Below, in pieces: positions 1,295-57,611 of a stretch of DNA of 64,000 nucleotides (its first letter is position 1; each line of letters opens with the position of its first letter). The translations under genes and the position numbers were made by a program. Origin of the DNA: Nitrosopumilales archaeon. Its GTDB lineage: Archaea > Thermoproteota > Nitrososphaeria > Nitrososphaerales > Nitrosopumilaceae. Below the pieces are notes generated by a model. That model was not told the origin of the DNA, did not search any database, and worked only from the letters and a program-made list of their open reading frames with translations. The DNA is taken from NCBI GenBank assembly GCA_016276965.1, contig JADNRU010000002.1, forward strand, positions 1-64,000. The letters are read 5' to 3'.

Positions 1295-3115
1295 ATGTCC
1301 GCAGAATCTCAAAAATCGGTATCTTACATACTATCAAAGCCAGTTTCTCAATTTATGGCTAAAGATGTTTTAATTCTTCATCAAGACACTTCGACTGGAT
1401 CAGCTACTAGACTTTTGCAGAGGTATGAGCGAGATGATATTGTAGTTACTGATGACCATCTCAAACCAGTAGGTATTGTGACAGATAAGGATATTTTAGC
1501 CCAAGTTAGTGATGTTACCGTTTTTGCCGAATCTACCACTTTAAAGCAAATCATGAGTTCACCTTTAATCACCATTGAAGAAAATGCGACATTACGTAAT
1601 GGTCTAGAAAAAATGACTAAAAACCATATCAGAAAACTTCCAGTAATTTCAAAAAAGCTAGTTGTAGTTGGAATGATATATCAAGCAACCATTGCAGCCG
1701 CAATTCGAAAAGCAGTAGATATTCATCCAAGATTTTTTAGCCCACCTGTAAAATCAATACTAGGGAATTTGGGATTTGTTTTGCAGTTTGCTGGAGCTCT
1801 TTTTCTCGTTCCAGCAGTTTTGGCCACCGTTTTAAATGATACCGTAACAGCTACTGGAATCTATCTTACTACAGTACTTCTACTTGTTACCGGGTTTTTC
1901 TTAAACTCTTATGGCGAAAAATCAAGCCTAAACCTACAACAAGCATCAATTTTGGTCTTTTCAAGTTTATTTATTCTAATACTGTTTGGAACAATTCCGT
2001 ACCTTTATGTCTCTCCTTATCAACCAGAAAATGCTGTAGAACTTTTTGCTAACAGCTTCTTTTCTAGCGCAGCTGGATTTACCACTGGAGGAATATCTCT
2101 TTATGAATTTCCTGAAGAGTTACCCCAAAGTTTTACGTTTTACCGCAGTTTCACACAGCTTATTGGAGGAATGAGTTTCATCTACCTTATAATTACAGCT
2201 TTTTATCCTGAAAGCAAACTCCAATCCATGAGAGGTTTCATTTCAGGAAAAACCTTACACTTAAGAGAGCTATTTGCCACCATCACAATAATTTTTGCTG
2301 TCTATATCGTCATTGTTGCTTTATTGTTATACATTTTTGGTGAGAGAAACATCATTGATAATTTTTCATTAGCTATGAGTACAATCTCAACTGGTGGATT
2401 CATTCCAAGTTCCACTATTCTTCAAGATATGTTGTGGCAAGAATATTTTGTTTTGATTGGAGCAATGATTTTAGGTGCTTTGCCATTTACTTTCCACTAT
2501 GCATTTGTAAGAAAGAGGTTTCTGTCACCTAAATTAGGTAAAGAAGTTCTTGTGTTTTTTACAATTCTTGCTGTTGCTGTATTAATATTTGGTTTCACCA
2601 GTGACTTAGATCCAATAATGTCAATTTTCTATACAATTTCAGCTGGAACTACGGCTGGATTGCAACTTGACAGTTTAGATGATTTGAGTGGACTGTCGCA
2701 AACAATTCTAGTAATTTTGATGTTCATTGGAGGATGTGGATTTTCAACTGCTGGCGGAATCAAAATTTTTAGGTTTTTGCAATTACGAAATATTGGAAAA
2801 GCTTTTCGTGCAGCTTCAAGAAAAGAATTGACTATTGAAAACAAAAAAGAAATGACTACCTCTCTCATAATCATTGCATTATTTCCAATTATTGCCACTG
2901 TTGTAGCTTTTCATCTAGTTGATATTACTGGAGCAGAGTTTAATGATGCCTTTTTAGAAGCAACTGGAATAATTACGACAGGTGGACTATGGGCAGATGT
3001 TATAACAACTGATATAAATCCCACAACAAAAATTGTTCTAAGTTTTCTCATGATATTTGGAAGACTAGAAATTATTGCAATATTGTATATTTTCATACCT
3101 AAGTTAAGCACTTGA
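1295..3115 (+). CDS. TrkH-type K+ transporter with N-terminal CBS-domain pair
   Basis: N-terminal tandem CBS pattern (VTDDHLKPVGIVTDKDILA...RKLPVISKKLVVVGMIY), then multi-TM TrkH with selectivity-like motifs (SAAGFTTGGIS, STISTGGF, SAGTTAGLQ, ATGIITTGGL). Confidence 0.88.
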   Translation: MSAESQKSVSYILSKPVSQFMAKDVLILHQDTSTGSATRLLQRYERDDIVVTDDHLKPVGIVTDKDILAQVSDVTVFAESTTLKQIMSSPLITIEENATLRNGLEKMTKNHIRKLPVISKKLVVVGMIYQATIAAAIRKAVDIHPRFFSPPVKSILGNLGFVLQFAGALFLVPAVLATVLNDTVTATGIYLTTVLLLVTGFFLNSYGEKSSLNLQQASILVFSSLFILILFGTIPYLYVSPYQPENAVELFANSFFSSAAGFTTGGISLYEFPEELPQSFTFYRSFTQLIGGMSFIYLIITAFYPESKLQSMRGFISGKTLHLRELFATITIIFAVYIVIVALLLYIFGERNIIDNFSLAMSTISTGGFIPSSTILQDMLWQEYFVLIGAMILGALPFTFHYAFVRKRFLSPKLGKEVLVFFTILAVAVLIFGFTSDLDPIMSIFYTISAGTTAGLQLDSLDDLSGLSQTILVILMFIGGCGFSTAGGIKIFRFLQLRNIGKAFRAASRKELTIENKKEMTTSLIIIALFPIIATVVAFHLVDITGAEFNDAFLEATGIITTGGLWADVITTDINPTTKIVLSFLMIFGRLEIIAILYIFIPKLST

Positions 3116-3162
3116 TAGACTTTTTTCTATAAAAATTCATAATGAGTTTAACTAAAAGATTT

Positions 3163-3237
3163 TCATCCTGTTAAAAAAGCGATATATGCTAATATTCCTG
3201 CAATCATCGTAATAGCTAATCCTATCGGACTTAACAT
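3163..3237 (-). CDS. Possible 24-aa single-TM micropeptide (MLSPIGLAITMIAGILAYIAFLTG)
   Basis: Short ORF with strongly hydrophobic content in the gap between trkH and RNase P RNA; no homology test possible. Confidence 0.3.
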   Translation of the reverse strand: MLSPIGLAITMIAGILAYIAFLTG

Positions 3238-3375
3238 TGGGAAAAAGTTTGGATTCTTGTATGTAAAAATCCAGGTTTAAAATTATTGAGTTATGATAAT
3301 CAATTCCAAGTGAATACCCTATCAATGAATATTTTAAAAGAAATATTCAAATTGAATAAAACCCAAGAAATTTTA

Positions 3376-3660
3376 GGTGCGAGCTGGTGCACGATACACT
3401 GTTACGGCAGAGGAAACTACTCCCTCCATGCAGGATATGTGTTCCGGAGACGGATAGTCAGAGATGGCTGGCAACAGAATAGAAAATAATCCCACCTGGA
3501 GTACAATGATGGCAAAACCTGAGGTTTCCAGAGAAGGAATGAAAAATCTGACCCACATGGAGCAAGGCCAAACAGAACTATAGGTTCCTGCACTTGGTTC
3601 AGGTAGGCTGCAAAGCGAAATATCGTAAAAACAGAAGGAGAGTTACGGCCAGCACGCACT
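3376..3660 (+). ncRNA. rnpB: RNase P RNA (archaeal)
   Basis: Conserved blocks: CAGAGGAAACTACTCCCTCC (CR-I-like), GGCTGGCAACAGAA, ACATGGAGCAAGGCCAAACAG, TTCAGGTAGGCTGCAAAGCG, ACAGAAGG. P1 pairs GTGCGAGCTGG (3377-3387) with CCAGCACGCAC (3649-3659), one A-A mismatch. Confidence 0.92.
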
Positions 3661-6697: not shown

Positions 6698-7612
6698 TTG
6701 GTTAAGGCTAATAATCTAAAAGATAAATGTCCAAGGTGCGGTAAAGGTATCTTAGTTACTGATACTAATACTGGTGAGAATTTTTGTGGTAAATGTGGTT
6801 TTGTTCTAACTGATCAATCCGTAGAAACTGGACCTGAATGGCGCTCATTTTCAAAAGAAGAACATGAAGGTAGGAGTCGTGCTGGGGTTCCAACATCTTT
6901 AGCAATGCATGATATGGGACTTGCAACGATAATTGGACCAACTGACAGAGATGCTACAGGAAAACCTCTTTCTGCTTCAATGAGAAGCACCATTGAACGT
7001 CTAAGAACATGGGATAGTAGAAGCCAGGTTCATGAACCAGTTGACAGAAACTTTAGGCAAGCTTTTAGTGAACTTGATAGACTCAAAGACAAATTAGCAG
7101 TAGCTGATGCTGTCGTTGAAAAAGCTGCATATATTTACAGAAAAGCTCTTGAAAAAGGTCTAGTCAGAGGACGTTCAATTTCTGCATTAATTGCTTCAGC
7201 TCTTTATGCTGCTTGCCGTGATACTGAAACACCTAGAACACTAAAAGACATTTCAAACTCAAGCAATATTAAACGAAAGGATATTGCCAGATGTTATCGA
7301 TTACTATTAAGAGAACTTGGCCTAAAAATGCCGGTTGTAGATCCAATCAAATGTGTTGCTAGAATTGCAAGTAAAGCAGGCCTTTCAGAGAAAACAAAAC
7401 GTGAAGCAACAAAAATTCTTAAAACTGCAGAAGAAATTAAAATTTCTGCTGGAAAAGATCCTATGGGACTTGCAGCTGCCGCTCTTTATGTTGCATGTGT
7501 AACAAATGGTGAAAATAAAACTCAAAGAGATGTTGCTGAAGCTGCTGGTGTTACAGAAGTAACAATAAGAAATAGATACAAAGGTTTGAAAATAGCTCTC
7601 AATTTACAATAA
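6698..7612 (+). CDS. tfb: Transcription initiation factor IIB (TFB)
   Basis: Zn ribbon CPRCGKGILVTDTNTGENFCGKCG plus two cyclin-like repeats. Confidence 0.95.
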   Translation: MVKANNLKDKCPRCGKGILVTDTNTGENFCGKCGFVLTDQSVETGPEWRSFSKEEHEGRSRAGVPTSLAMHDMGLATIIGPTDRDATGKPLSASMRSTIERLRTWDSRSQVHEPVDRNFRQAFSELDRLKDKLAVADAVVEKAAYIYRKALEKGLVRGRSISALIASALYAACRDTETPRTLKDISNSSNIKRKDIARCYRLLLRELGLKMPVVDPIKCVARIASKAGLSEKTKREATKILKTAEEIKISAGKDPMGLAAAALYVACVTNGENKTQRDVAEAAGVTEVTIRNRYKGLKIALNLQ

Positions 7613-7763
7613 TAATCAATAAAAAAAAACTATTTTTTATTCATAAACTTTTCAAGGCATTTAACAGAAAATTTACATTGTAATAATTATTAGTTTACCT
7701 CAGTAACATGAAAACTTTGAAGCGTTACAATAATTTTGATAATATTACAATATTTTTCTAGGT

Positions 7764-8657
7764 TTGAATTTATTCGATCACTTTATTAATTTGAATTTTT
7801 ATGGCTGTGTCGTGAGGGGAAGTAATGGGAACCTAGATGGTAGAATATTCTCATCATCCAAATTTAGAGACTTCATTGAAAAACAATTACTGGAAATTTT
7901 AGAACTAACTGATGATTATGGCGGATTAGCACGTTCATCTAAAAATTATCCAATTAACATGGATGTTTATAATGCTATACGAGAAAAAAATGATTTTAAA
8001 ACAAAATCCAAAAAAAGTATGTGGATTCTCAAATCATTAACTGGAAAAACAGTAAACATGAATGTAATTAATATTGATATTGTTAATTCTAGTGAAAGAG
8101 TCAAATCACTTTCATCACAAGACGTTGAACATTACTACAAAACCTTTATAGAAAAATCAGCTGAGATAATCCAACAATTTGGTGGATATGTACTAAAAAA
8201 TGTAGGTGATTGTGTTATAGGTTTTTTTCCAACAGGAAACTACATCAATGAAAATCATGACAGCGTGGTAACATGTGGACTAAATGCAATAGATATGGTA
8301 AAAAACATGAACAAGGATTTTCAAGAGATTGGTTTACCTTCAATAAATTGTCGTGTGAGTGCAGATTTTGGTGAAGCAAAAGTTGTTCAACTACAATCAC
8401 AATGTGATTATTCTGCCTTAGATTTATTTGGTAATGCACTCAACAAACCAACAAACATTTTGCATCATGCAAAGCCAGATCAAATGGTCGTGGGAGGTGA
8501 CCTCTTTGCAAATTTCATGTCAGATTTTAGAGAAGGAATCAAAAAGAAGCTCATAACAATATATTCGGATAATTTTGGTTTTGATTTTAAACTAATTCAT
8601 AGATTTGATATTACGGGACATCAAAATTATCCAGTTTTTCTTGTGGATCACTCATAG
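7764..8657 (+). CDS. Class III adenylate/guanylate cyclase-like protein
   Basis: VINIDIVNSSERVKSL and GDCVIGFFP metal-binding blocks, CDYSALDLFGNALNKPTNIL block. Confidence 0.75.
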   Translation: MNLFDHFINLNFYGCVVRGSNGNLDGRIFSSSKFRDFIEKQLLEILELTDDYGGLARSSKNYPINMDVYNAIREKNDFKTKSKKSMWILKSLTGKTVNMNVINIDIVNSSERVKSLSSQDVEHYYKTFIEKSAEIIQQFGGYVLKNVGDCVIGFFPTGNYINENHDSVVTCGLNAIDMVKNMNKDFQEIGLPSINCRVSADFGEAKVVQLQSQCDYSALDLFGNALNKPTNILHHAKPDQMVVGGDLFANFMSDFREGIKKKLITIYSDNFGFDFKLIHRFDITGHQNYPVFLVDHS

Positions 8658-54754: not shown

Positions 54755-55849
54755 TTAAATTATCTCGCTTCTTAATTTCCGAGTTACTGCAGCTTCAATA
54801 TTTTCAAAAATGTTTAACATTTTTTGTTTGTTATCTTTCAAATAATAAAGTCCTCTATCTTTTAATCTAATTTTCCATAATCTAATCTCTCTATGCTCTT
54901 CGAAAAATTGTTCTATCATTTGTTGTCCATGTTTTGTAGGATCAATAAAGGAATCAAAATTATCGATTGTTTTTTGAACATCTTCTTCATTAATAGAGGA
55001 TTTAACAGCTTGAATAGCATGGCTTATTTCTTTTAAATTTTTAACTGATGGCGGAAGTTTTTTCATTTTAATTCCATGTAATCCTTTCTTTTCAGCACCA
55101 ATCTTTTTGACCATCTCTGGAGCTAGGTCATAAGTATTTACTTTACTGAATCCTTTTCTCTCTTCATGTTTGACAATTAGTCCTTTTTCTAATAATTTTT
55201 TCAATCCATCTTCTGCATTGGCTCTATTCATGAAAGTTGTCCAAACTATAGCACCAATTGTGTGATATCCCTGTTTAATTGATTCTAAAACAACAACTTC
55301 TTCAATTCGTTTAAAACCTTCTTCAAATCTAAGGTTTAGAAAGTCTCTGTCTTTAACTGCTCTTCGAGCATTTCTCACATCAATTTCAATTGCTCGTGTT
55401 AATGCTTCAATTGATTCAGGAACTTGATTTAGAATTGAAAGAAAACACGCCTTGTTGTACCTAGCCATTCCAAAAGTTGGTTCGGATTCAATTGCTTTTT
55501 CAACACTATCAAGTGCTTTAGCATAATTTTTTTGCTCATAGTATACAAGACCTTTTAAATTCCATGTTTCAGCGTTTGTAACATCAATTTCTAAAATACG
55601 GTCATAGACTTTTTGGGCTTCTAAATAGTCATCTAAATGAAATCTAGCATATCCTAATTTTATTAGAGTCTCAACGTGATTTGGATCAATTCTTAAAACT
55701 TGCTCAAAAACTCTAGTAGCCTCTTCGAGTTTTTCATCTGCCATTAAATTAATGCCTTTTTTGAAAAGTTTGTTTCTATTGTAATCTGCATCTGTAAGAC
55801 TAGTTTCTTCTTTTCTGTCCTTTGGTTTTTTGTTGAATAGCTTTTTCAT
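54755..55849 (-). CDS. TPR-repeat protein
   Basis: Consecutive TPRs (AEATRVFEQVLRIDPNHVETLIKLGYARF-like, AETWNLKGLVYYEQKNYAKALDSVEKAIE). Confidence 0.85.
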   Translation of the reverse strand: MKKLFNKKPKDRKEETSLTDADYNRNKLFKKGINLMADEKLEEATRVFEQVLRIDPNHVETLIKLGYARFHLDDYLEAQKVYDRILEIDVTNAETWNLKGLVYYEQKNYAKALDSVEKAIESEPTFGMARYNKACFLSILNQVPESIEALTRAIEIDVRNARRAVKDRDFLNLRFEEGFKRIEEVVVLESIKQGYHTIGAIVWTTFMNRANAEDGLKKLLEKGLIVKHEERKGFSKVNTYDLAPEMVKKIGAEKKGLHGIKMKKLPPSVKNLKEISHAIQAVKSSINEEDVQKTIDNFDSFIDPTKHGQQMIEQFFEEHREIRLWKIRLKDRGLYYLKDNKQKMLNIFENIEAAVTRKLRSEII

Positions 55850-55974
55850 CTATAATTCTCTATAGGCATTTTTCTCTAGATAAATACTATTCCTGATTTT
55901 GGCCTAGTTCCAACCTGTTTTGCTCAAAATTCCCTTTGTAAATACAAAAATACTTCATAATTACATCTTCGGTA

Positions 55975-57285
55975 GTGTCTACTAATCCTAAAATTGAAAT
56001 TCATGGCACCTCTCCTTTCAAACTACCCTCTGGAGTCTTTGAGGTTCAAATTGCACTTTCAGATAAAAAACCTTCGGCGTCCAGTATTGCAGAGAAAAAT
56101 TTTCCTTCATTATGGAAAGACAATTTTCATTTGAATGTTAGTGATGGAAAGTTCACTGAAATTCTGGGAACTGATGAGAATCCTTTACCACAATCAGTAC
56201 TTGATCTTGGTAGTGTTTGGGTAATAGTTACTGATCAATTTTCTTCTATGAATACTGTTTTTGATATTCAACTTCCTAAAGCCGGGAAAAAACCAATAGC
56301 TGCACCAAAAATTCCAGAGCCTGAAGTGGCTCCAACTCTAAAAAAGCCTAAAAAAGAACCAACTCCTCCTAGTGGCTTACCTGGATTATCTGGTGAACGA
56401 GGTGGTCGTGGTCAGACTGGAGAATTAGGAGAGAAGGGATCCATTGGGGCACCAGGTCCACAAGGAGATCCCGGACCCGCTGGTCCAGAAGGTCTACAGG
56501 GAGAGAAAGGAGACAAAGGTCCACCCGGTGACAAAGGAGACAAAGGATCAGCAGGATCTAGAGGCGAAAAAGGAGACAAAGGATTAACCGGAGATAAAGG
56601 TGACAAAGGCGATAAGGGTACCCCCGGTCCATCAGGTGACAAAGGAGACAAAGGTCCAAAAGGTCCACCTGGTGACAAAGGAGACAAAGGAGCAGCAGGA
56701 GAACGTGGTGGACACGGTCCTCTCGGAGACAAAGGAACTACAGGCGAACAAGGTTCTAAAGGAGAAAAAGGAAGAGCAGGAGACGCAGGATCTCCTGGAG
56801 AAAAAGGTCCAATGGGACCACAAGGAAAAGCAGGCGACAAAGGATTAACAGGCATTCCCGGTCCACCTGGAGAAAAAGGTGAGAGTGGTCTACCGGGTTT
56901 ACAAGGAGAGAAAGGTACAACAGGCCCTCCAGGCCCAGTTGGTGATAAAGGTCCTAGCGGTCCACAAGGTCCACTAGGTCCAAGAGGTCCAGCAGGTCAG
57001 CCAGGTGAAAAAGGTCCAATAGGTCCACAAGGAATCCAGGGACCCCAAGGAGAAAGAGGAGCTGCGGGTCATCCAGGTCCCCCAGGTGAACAAGGTCAAA
57101 AAGGTGAACAAGGTCCACCAGGAGCAATTGGACCACGAGGTCCACCAGGTCCGCCAGGTGAAAAAGGAACTTCTGGAATGTCTGAAGAAAATAAAATGTT
57201 GGTTAAAGAATTGTTAGAGATACTTACTACAAAGAACATAATCACAACTGAAGAGCAAATCAAATTGATGAGCCGTTTGTATTAG
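55975..57285 (+). CDS. Collagen-like Gly-X-Y repeat protein
   Basis: 90 uninterrupted Gly-X-Y triplets (residues 134-403; nt 56374-57183) between a 133-aa N-terminal region and a 33-aa helical C-terminus; GTG start. Confidence 0.93.
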
Positions 57286-57320
57286 TGATTATGTTCAAAT
57301 ATGGTCTAATCTAAAAATAA

Positions 57321-57611
57321 TTGCAAATGAGCCAAAAACCAAACAAAATTGAATTCAAAATGCTGGATTTTGAAAGACTTGAAAACGAATTTGTTTCCTT
57401 TAAACTAGAAGATGGAACTGTGGTCAAAGTTAAGGTCGACCTTGATAGAGTTGGAATTGCAACTAACTTTAGCAACCCAGACGGAACACCTCACTATGCA
57501 ATCAATACTTCAGTAAAGCTAACAGTAATACCAAGTAATAGAAAGTTCTCAGTGGAAAAGACTTCGATAAAAGGAAAGCAATCTTCGCCGCCAGGTCAAA
57601 TGTTTAGCTAA
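57321..57611 (+). CDS. Hypothetical beta-rich protein downstream of collagen-like gene
   Basis: 96-aa ORF (LENEFVSFKLEDGTVVKVKVDLDRVGIATNF...), same strand, 35-nt gap. Confidence 0.7.
   Translation: MQMSQKPNKIEFKMLDFERLENEFVSFKLEDGTVVKVKVDLDRVGIATNFSNPDGTPHYAINTSVKLTVIPSNRKFSVEKTSIKGKQSSPPGQMFS

Follow-up and report, generated by a model that had tools for sequence, protein, structure and literature searches.

Prokaryotic collagen-like sequences are usually regarded as scattered genes, often accessory or encoding host-mimicking surface proteins, and those of archaea as rarities. The window (the entire 64,000-nucleotide stretch of DNA that was analyzed) lies on contig 2 of a 1.17 Mb draft genome, 85% complete, of a Nitrosopumilales archaeon, and contains a collagen-like gene in single copy, which raises the question of whether such a gene is a curiosity of one genome or a lasting component of its family, and of what a collagen could be doing in these cells. 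A paper of 2015 counted 14 archaeal entries in the collagen Pfam family versus 2,554 from bacteria, and cited the lack of collagens in archaea in favor of transfer from animals (PMC4565658). The 436-aa product of the window gene matches Pfam PF01391 (Collagen) with E=2.4e-45 (152.6 bits against a gathering cut-off of 27.2), so that its earlier description as an archaeal collagen-like protein is borne out, and the count of 90 Gly-X-Y triplets given with that description was exact, the run being unbroken and followed by a tail of 33 aa (Table 1). The architecture is constant among orthologues: a beta-sandwich of about 100 aa, a Pro/Lys linker, the Gly-X-Y run, and the 33-aa C-tail. With a head and a tail of its own, this is a new core subfamily of archaeal collagen-like proteins, and no description of the gene family was found in the open-access literature searched.

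Table 1. Coordinates of the collagen-like gene, its parts and its neighbors in the window.
Feature	Position	Strand	Remarks
TPR-repeat protein, divergent neighbor, context outside the claimed system	54755..55849	-	position mostly conserved
Promoter element AAATACAAAAATACTT	55940..55955	+	archaeal TATA-like box, some 20-35 bases ahead of the start codon
Collagen-like protein gene	55975..57285	+	GTG start, 436 aa, single copy
N-terminal beta-sandwich domain, residues 1-100	55975..56274	+	AF2; no match outside Nitrosopumilaceae
Pro/Lys-rich low-confidence linker, residues 101-133	56275..56373	+	pLDDT 53-65; unaligned, length variable
Gly-X-Y run, 90 unbroken triplets, residues 134-403	56374..57183	+	GDK/GEK spaced 4 triplets (12 residues)
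Conserved 33-aa C-tail, putative trimerization or docking element	57184..57282	+	70% mean column identity
94-aa gene (p96), small beta protein, accessory	57327..57611	+	gap of 41 bases after the collagen gene

Occurrence and descent in the Nitrosopumilaceae

The family Nitrosopumilaceae was recognized from its named members (Nitrosopumilus, Nitrosarchaeum, Nitrosotalea, Nitrosopumilales), and the nearest named relatives are Thaumarchaeota archaeon CSP1-1 and MnTg01. A query restricted to the N-terminal domain matched 166 of 200 Nitrosopumilaceae genomes, 111 of the 119 good ones, and all 22 of 22 genera, nearly always with one copy, and collagen repeats were found in 177 of the 200. When an alignment of 42 N-domain sequences was compared with a phylum-wide sample, 43 of 44 Nitrosopumilaceae genomes matched (G148 being the one listed without a match) and 0 of 256 genomes outside the family did; for families of the same order, the counts were 0 of 70 genomes (family of G383) and 0 of 7 (family of G367). 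These negatives are credible because the same query yields positives. Among the genomes from which the gene is apparently absent, G148, G086 and G056 have the neighboring GTPase gene 372, 706 and 491 bases, respectively, from a contig end on the collagen-gene side; G107 has p96 beside the contig end, and the contig stops inside Gly-X-Y sequence; and G105 and G166 are missing the region, with no full GTPase match either. Because repetitive DNA often breaks assemblies, the true frequency of the gene in the family is likely close to all genomes. The single-contig genome G019, of 1.2 Mb, retains the gene with 87 triplets.

Pairwise distances between N-domains correlate with those of seven neighboring genes (r 0.64-0.83, Mantel p=0.001), and the distances of the seven genes correlate mutually at 0.69-0.77. 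Because N-domain distances follow those of housekeeping genes, inheritance of the collagen gene looks vertical; the compared genes are linked, and therefore a recent transfer confined to the collagen gene is disfavored, transfer of the whole region less so. Across 20 Nitrosopumilaceae genomes the gene order is mostly kept (TPR gene in divergent orientation, collagen gene, 94-aa gene where present, GTPase, phosphatase, ArgRS), with rearrangement of the neighborhood in a few (e.g., L067 and L076). A single-copy orthologue in essentially all Nitrosopumilaceae, with a housekeeping-like tree, points to an archaeal collagen that is old, has been handed down vertically and is probably important; the Nitrosopumilaceae are a large, globally abundant family of ammonia-oxidizing archaea, and theirs is a core gene rather than a one-genome curiosity. 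In most genera 125 bases separate the TPR gene from the collagen gene, and a regulatory region shared by the two is possible.

Head, rod and tail

The 133 residues before the repeat, which the earlier note had treated as one domain, are divided by AF2 confidence into a folded part of about 100 aa and a linker of about 33 aa. The model of the folded part, computed with 42 orthologues as input, is a six-stranded beta-sandwich with pLDDT of about 95 (84-98 by blocks), and 14 residues of the domain are invariant (G11, P14, G20, E23, W47, H52, L53, F60, L64, G65, P70, P72, D87 and S90). Kinship of this domain to the N-termini of bacterial stalk and tail-fiber proteins, which had been suggested from its appearance, was not upheld by the databases: nothing significant was found in Pfam, PHROGs, PDB sequences, PDB or BFVD folds, phage and plasmid tblastn searches, or viral contigs, and Foldseek gave no match at E<=1e-3. 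The Foldseek match of best probability was SgrA (5fce; TM 0.46, E 0.085). Phage tail-fiber proteins with collagen-like repeats have no signal peptide and use the collagen rod as a spacer, and some of the weak structural matches of the N-domain are to phage proteins, both of which would suit a tail-fiber-like or virion-derived fiber that was domesticated from a virus or a phage-tail-like particle. Such an origin is nevertheless highly improbable, given that no N-domain relative was found in viral contigs or phage records, that no PHROG matched, that the best BFVD match had E 2.3e-3 and TM 0.31, and that the core gene resides in a syntenic neighborhood of housekeeping genes without phage genes.

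The Gly-X-Y run is unbroken in nearly all complete orthologues and comprises 72-185 triplets (mostly 72-141, most commonly 101-104 or 119-126) in the 85 copies whose single run and tail are both intact, a set in which some genomes are counted twice. An exception (L075; G004:C3:152000-168000, 7153-8250, minus strand), in a reduced genome of 0.8 Mb, has only 32 triplets, split between two runs, and a tail that has diverged; its N-domain is kept, and its rod seems to be decaying. Another orthologue (L236; G006:C1:42000-50000, 2895-3611 of the plus strand and beyond), in a single-contig genome, is frameshifted within the collagen part, and its tail continues in another frame, indicating either a pseudogene or a sequencing error. 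Identity at X and Y positions goes down to about 0.33 in register between orthologues with the Gly-X-Y frame still unbroken; because the frame stays unbroken while the X/Y residues diverge, the run is not due to chance. When copies of different genera were anchored at the C-end, X/Y identity was often maximal at zero shift (for the window protein, 0.62 with L061 and 0.33 with L069, versus a background of 0.18), and for Nitrosotalea-type copies the best shift was -1 or -9 triplets.

Within a protein, self-identity of the run is maximal at multiples of four triplets (0.32-0.33 at four and eight triplets versus 0.19 in shuffled sequence), a period driven by GDK and GEK, pairs of which are four triplets apart in 1315 counts versus about 400-480 counts at each distance from one to three. 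At the textbook collagen rise of 0.286 nm per residue, this spacing is about 3.4 nm. The best tandem repeat in the DNA of the window copy has a period of 36 bases, and the four-triplet periodicity may be due to selection or may be left from an ancient repeat unit of 36 bases. The Lys-Gly-Asp/Glu pairs to which stabilization of the triple helix had been attributed do exist, as 11 axial K-G-D/E pairs, but are not enriched relative to composition (z -0.4); their frequency being at or below chance, they were rejected as a selected feature. Enrichment was found instead for D/E-K inside one triplet (26 seen versus 12 expected, z 6.5), and the net charge of the collagen part is near zero. The tandem-repeat character of the DNA and the variation in run length among intact copies are what would be expected of a repeat-expanded, unfolded linker that forms no triple helix, but this explanation is quite improbable in view of a frame that is unbroken in nearly all intact copies at X/Y identity of about 33% and of a Pro content at the X position of 29-47%, which resembles the 31% of Gram-positive bacterial collagens that are proven to be triple-helical (PMC8968730). 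Formation of a triple helix by the archaeal run is likely. Although the counts peak near 124 triplets, a fixed rod length serving as a ruler is not claimed, because the 124-triplet copies of two lineages misalign in simple register and run lengths cluster by lineage.

The mean column identity of the C-tail was determined with 20 sequences spanning genera, and among 14 Nitrosopumilaceae genomes searched the tail is present solely at the end of the collagen-like protein. The only match to the tail was a sub-threshold one, SPP1 gp23.1 (E 0.026).

Cell location and possible role

The promoter element is the sole match in the window at up to one mismatch (0.06 expected). Of 85 distinct upstream regions of orthologues, 77 (79 if two further placements are counted) have an AAATACT/C box at -26 or -27 relative to the start codon. 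An in-frame stop is located no more than six codons upstream of the start in 33 of 95 copies. The GTG start is fixed because of the conserved promoter box and the upstream in-frame stops. The spacing of the box fits an archaeal TATA box directing a transcript that begins at or beside the start codon, which suggests that the transcript is leaderless or nearly so.

With the start fixed, the claim that the window protein lacks a signal peptide was confirmed by hydropathy and extends to its orthologues: none has membrane-type hydropathy in its first 60 aa (the best 19-residue mean is 1.14), the highest 19-residue mean in the whole protein (1.65) is within the core of the N-domain, and neither LPXTG nor a membrane segment was found at orthologue C-ends. 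Four other collagen-repeat proteins of Nitrosopumilaceae that were examined have hydrophobic N-terminal segments that appear signal-like when judged by eye (e.g., MAGKISVVLLSVILLTSIVSSFNVSAFA in L232), and because of these the absence of a signal peptide from the core protein is meaningful. Exported collagen-repeat proteins of the family are marked as usual and the core one is unmarked; therefore a cytoplasmic place is favored, not proven. The core collagen-like protein is likely intracellular on these sequence grounds, against which it may be set that non-classical export may occur.

The reading that we prefer, with a probability of about one half, is that the gene encodes a vertically inherited core structural protein, a trimeric intracellular rod that acts as a spacer or cross-linker. 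The C-tail would gather three chains, and these would zip into a rigid triple helix of about 77 nm in the window protein and 62-106 nm in most relatives (0.286 nm per residue), with three beta-sandwich heads at its N-end. The rod would stay in the cytoplasm or against the inner side of the membrane, which are the most likely places because there is no export signal, and its rigidity would keep a ligand bound to the heads at a distance from one bound to the tail. With charged triplets every 3.4 nm, rods could also pack side by side. The trimer, the triple helix and the location are predicted, and it is the architecture of the protein that suggests its spacer function. As a more specific and tentative proposal, a core intracellular rod of about 60-110 nm, comparable in length to the radius of these thin cells, could serve as a spacer or ruler in cell architecture. 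No spacer or ruler role of an intracellular collagen was found described for any prokaryote in the literature searched; an intracellular location, if true, would be unusual and an exception to the rule that collagens act extracellularly.

The alternative is that the protein is a surface or S-layer-associated collagen adhesin or stalk, exported by an unrecognized route, that protects or attaches the cell. Most characterized prokaryotic collagen-like proteins are surface proteins (PMC8968730), and in Ca. Nitrosotenuis chungbukensis MY2 genes for "LPXTG-anchored collagen-like adhesins" are reported to be highly expressed at low salinity, one product being detected in the proteome and raised as a surface factor (PMC13037477). 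The MY2 protein is possibly an orthologue of the window protein, being from the same family and bearing the automatic name that such repeats would be expected to receive, but Nitrosotenuis-type genomes also encode a second, secreted-type collagen-repeat protein that could equally be the one described. The Scl-type adhesin name arises because the repeats alone match the Scl1/SclA and Scl2/SclB models (NF038330/NF038329) far below cut-off, the NCBIfam scores of the repeat region being 190.3/500, 177.3/400 and 143.8/325 bits. With signal-like segments on the other collagen-repeat proteins of the family, and orthologues of the core protein that have a fixed start codon and no signal peptide, anchor or LPXTG, a surface adhesin is judged rather unlikely.

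The small downstream gene and other collagen-like proteins

The co-directional open reading frame downstream of the collagen gene, reported earlier as starting at 57321 with 96 aa, is real, but the ATG at 57327 is the conserved start, which gives 94 aa. Where both genes are intact at one locus, p96 invariably follows the collagen gene on the same strand, mostly at a distance of 1-40 bases, and few proteins encoded in the region are as well conserved as its product (mean column identity 74%). These features would fit an obligatory two-gene module. Such a module is improbable: p96 was found in 70 of 200 Nitrosopumilaceae genomes and in about a third of the good ones (44 of 119), the 75 of 119 without it including complete genomes that retain the collagen gene; the gap is 0.1-1.5 kb in some genomes, with instances of 0.9-1.5 kb; and the whole region is syntenic. 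In addition, weaker relatives of p96 were found by an alignment search in other families of the phylum (at least 14 genomes, E 1e-10 to 1e-5), where they are stand-alone genes of about 90 aa with no collagen nearby (6 of 6 inspected; for L223, which had matches on both strands, the plus-strand ORF is meant). Thus the partnership proposed for the two genes is right as to their linkage wherever p96 exists, and is weakened in that over half of the good collagen-bearing genomes lack p96 and that p96 has relatives without collagen. Because phylum-wide relatives occur without collagen and the locus is shared in part of the Nitrosopumilaceae, p96 is, by its sequence distribution, older than the sharing of the collagen locus and is not a dedicated partner. 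The p96 family (window 57327-57611 and loci L222-L227) has the phylum-wide pattern LxDGTxxKVK(L/V)xLxxV...PDGTPxYxIN. No Pfam or NCBIfam model matches it, a search of PDB sequences gave no match, and structure prediction was poor (pLDDT 50.5).

The core protein resembles streptococcal Scl1/Scl2 and Legionella Lcl (NF038330, NF038329, NF046116) in having a long unbroken Gly-X-Y rod, non-collagenous ends and no hydroxylation signals, but its N- and C-terminal domains are different, and it has no signal peptide, LPXTG or anchor. The Scl and Lcl genes are accessory and virulence-type, whereas the archaeal collagen gene is core. BclA, the exosporium collagen of Bacillus, is made and trimerized in the cytoplasm without a classical signal peptide, and ends on the spore surface with a TNF-like C-domain. 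The lack of a classical signal peptide is common to BclA and the archaeal protein, but these archaea are sporeless, and the searches made show no relationship in sequence between the domains of the two proteins.

Collagen repeats also occur, without the core N-domain, in 21 of 70 genomes of the family of G383, where they are patchy and multi-copy. Within the Nitrosopumilaceae, a secreted-type collagen-repeat protein (L233; G075:C1:1250000-1262000, minus-strand ORF ending at locus base 6755) has 559 unbroken triplets, nearly all of them GLT, GAT, GIQ, GPQ, GPT, GST or GET, preceded by a signal-like segment and a stretch rich in Ala, Lys and Asp; its rod would be about 480 nm long.
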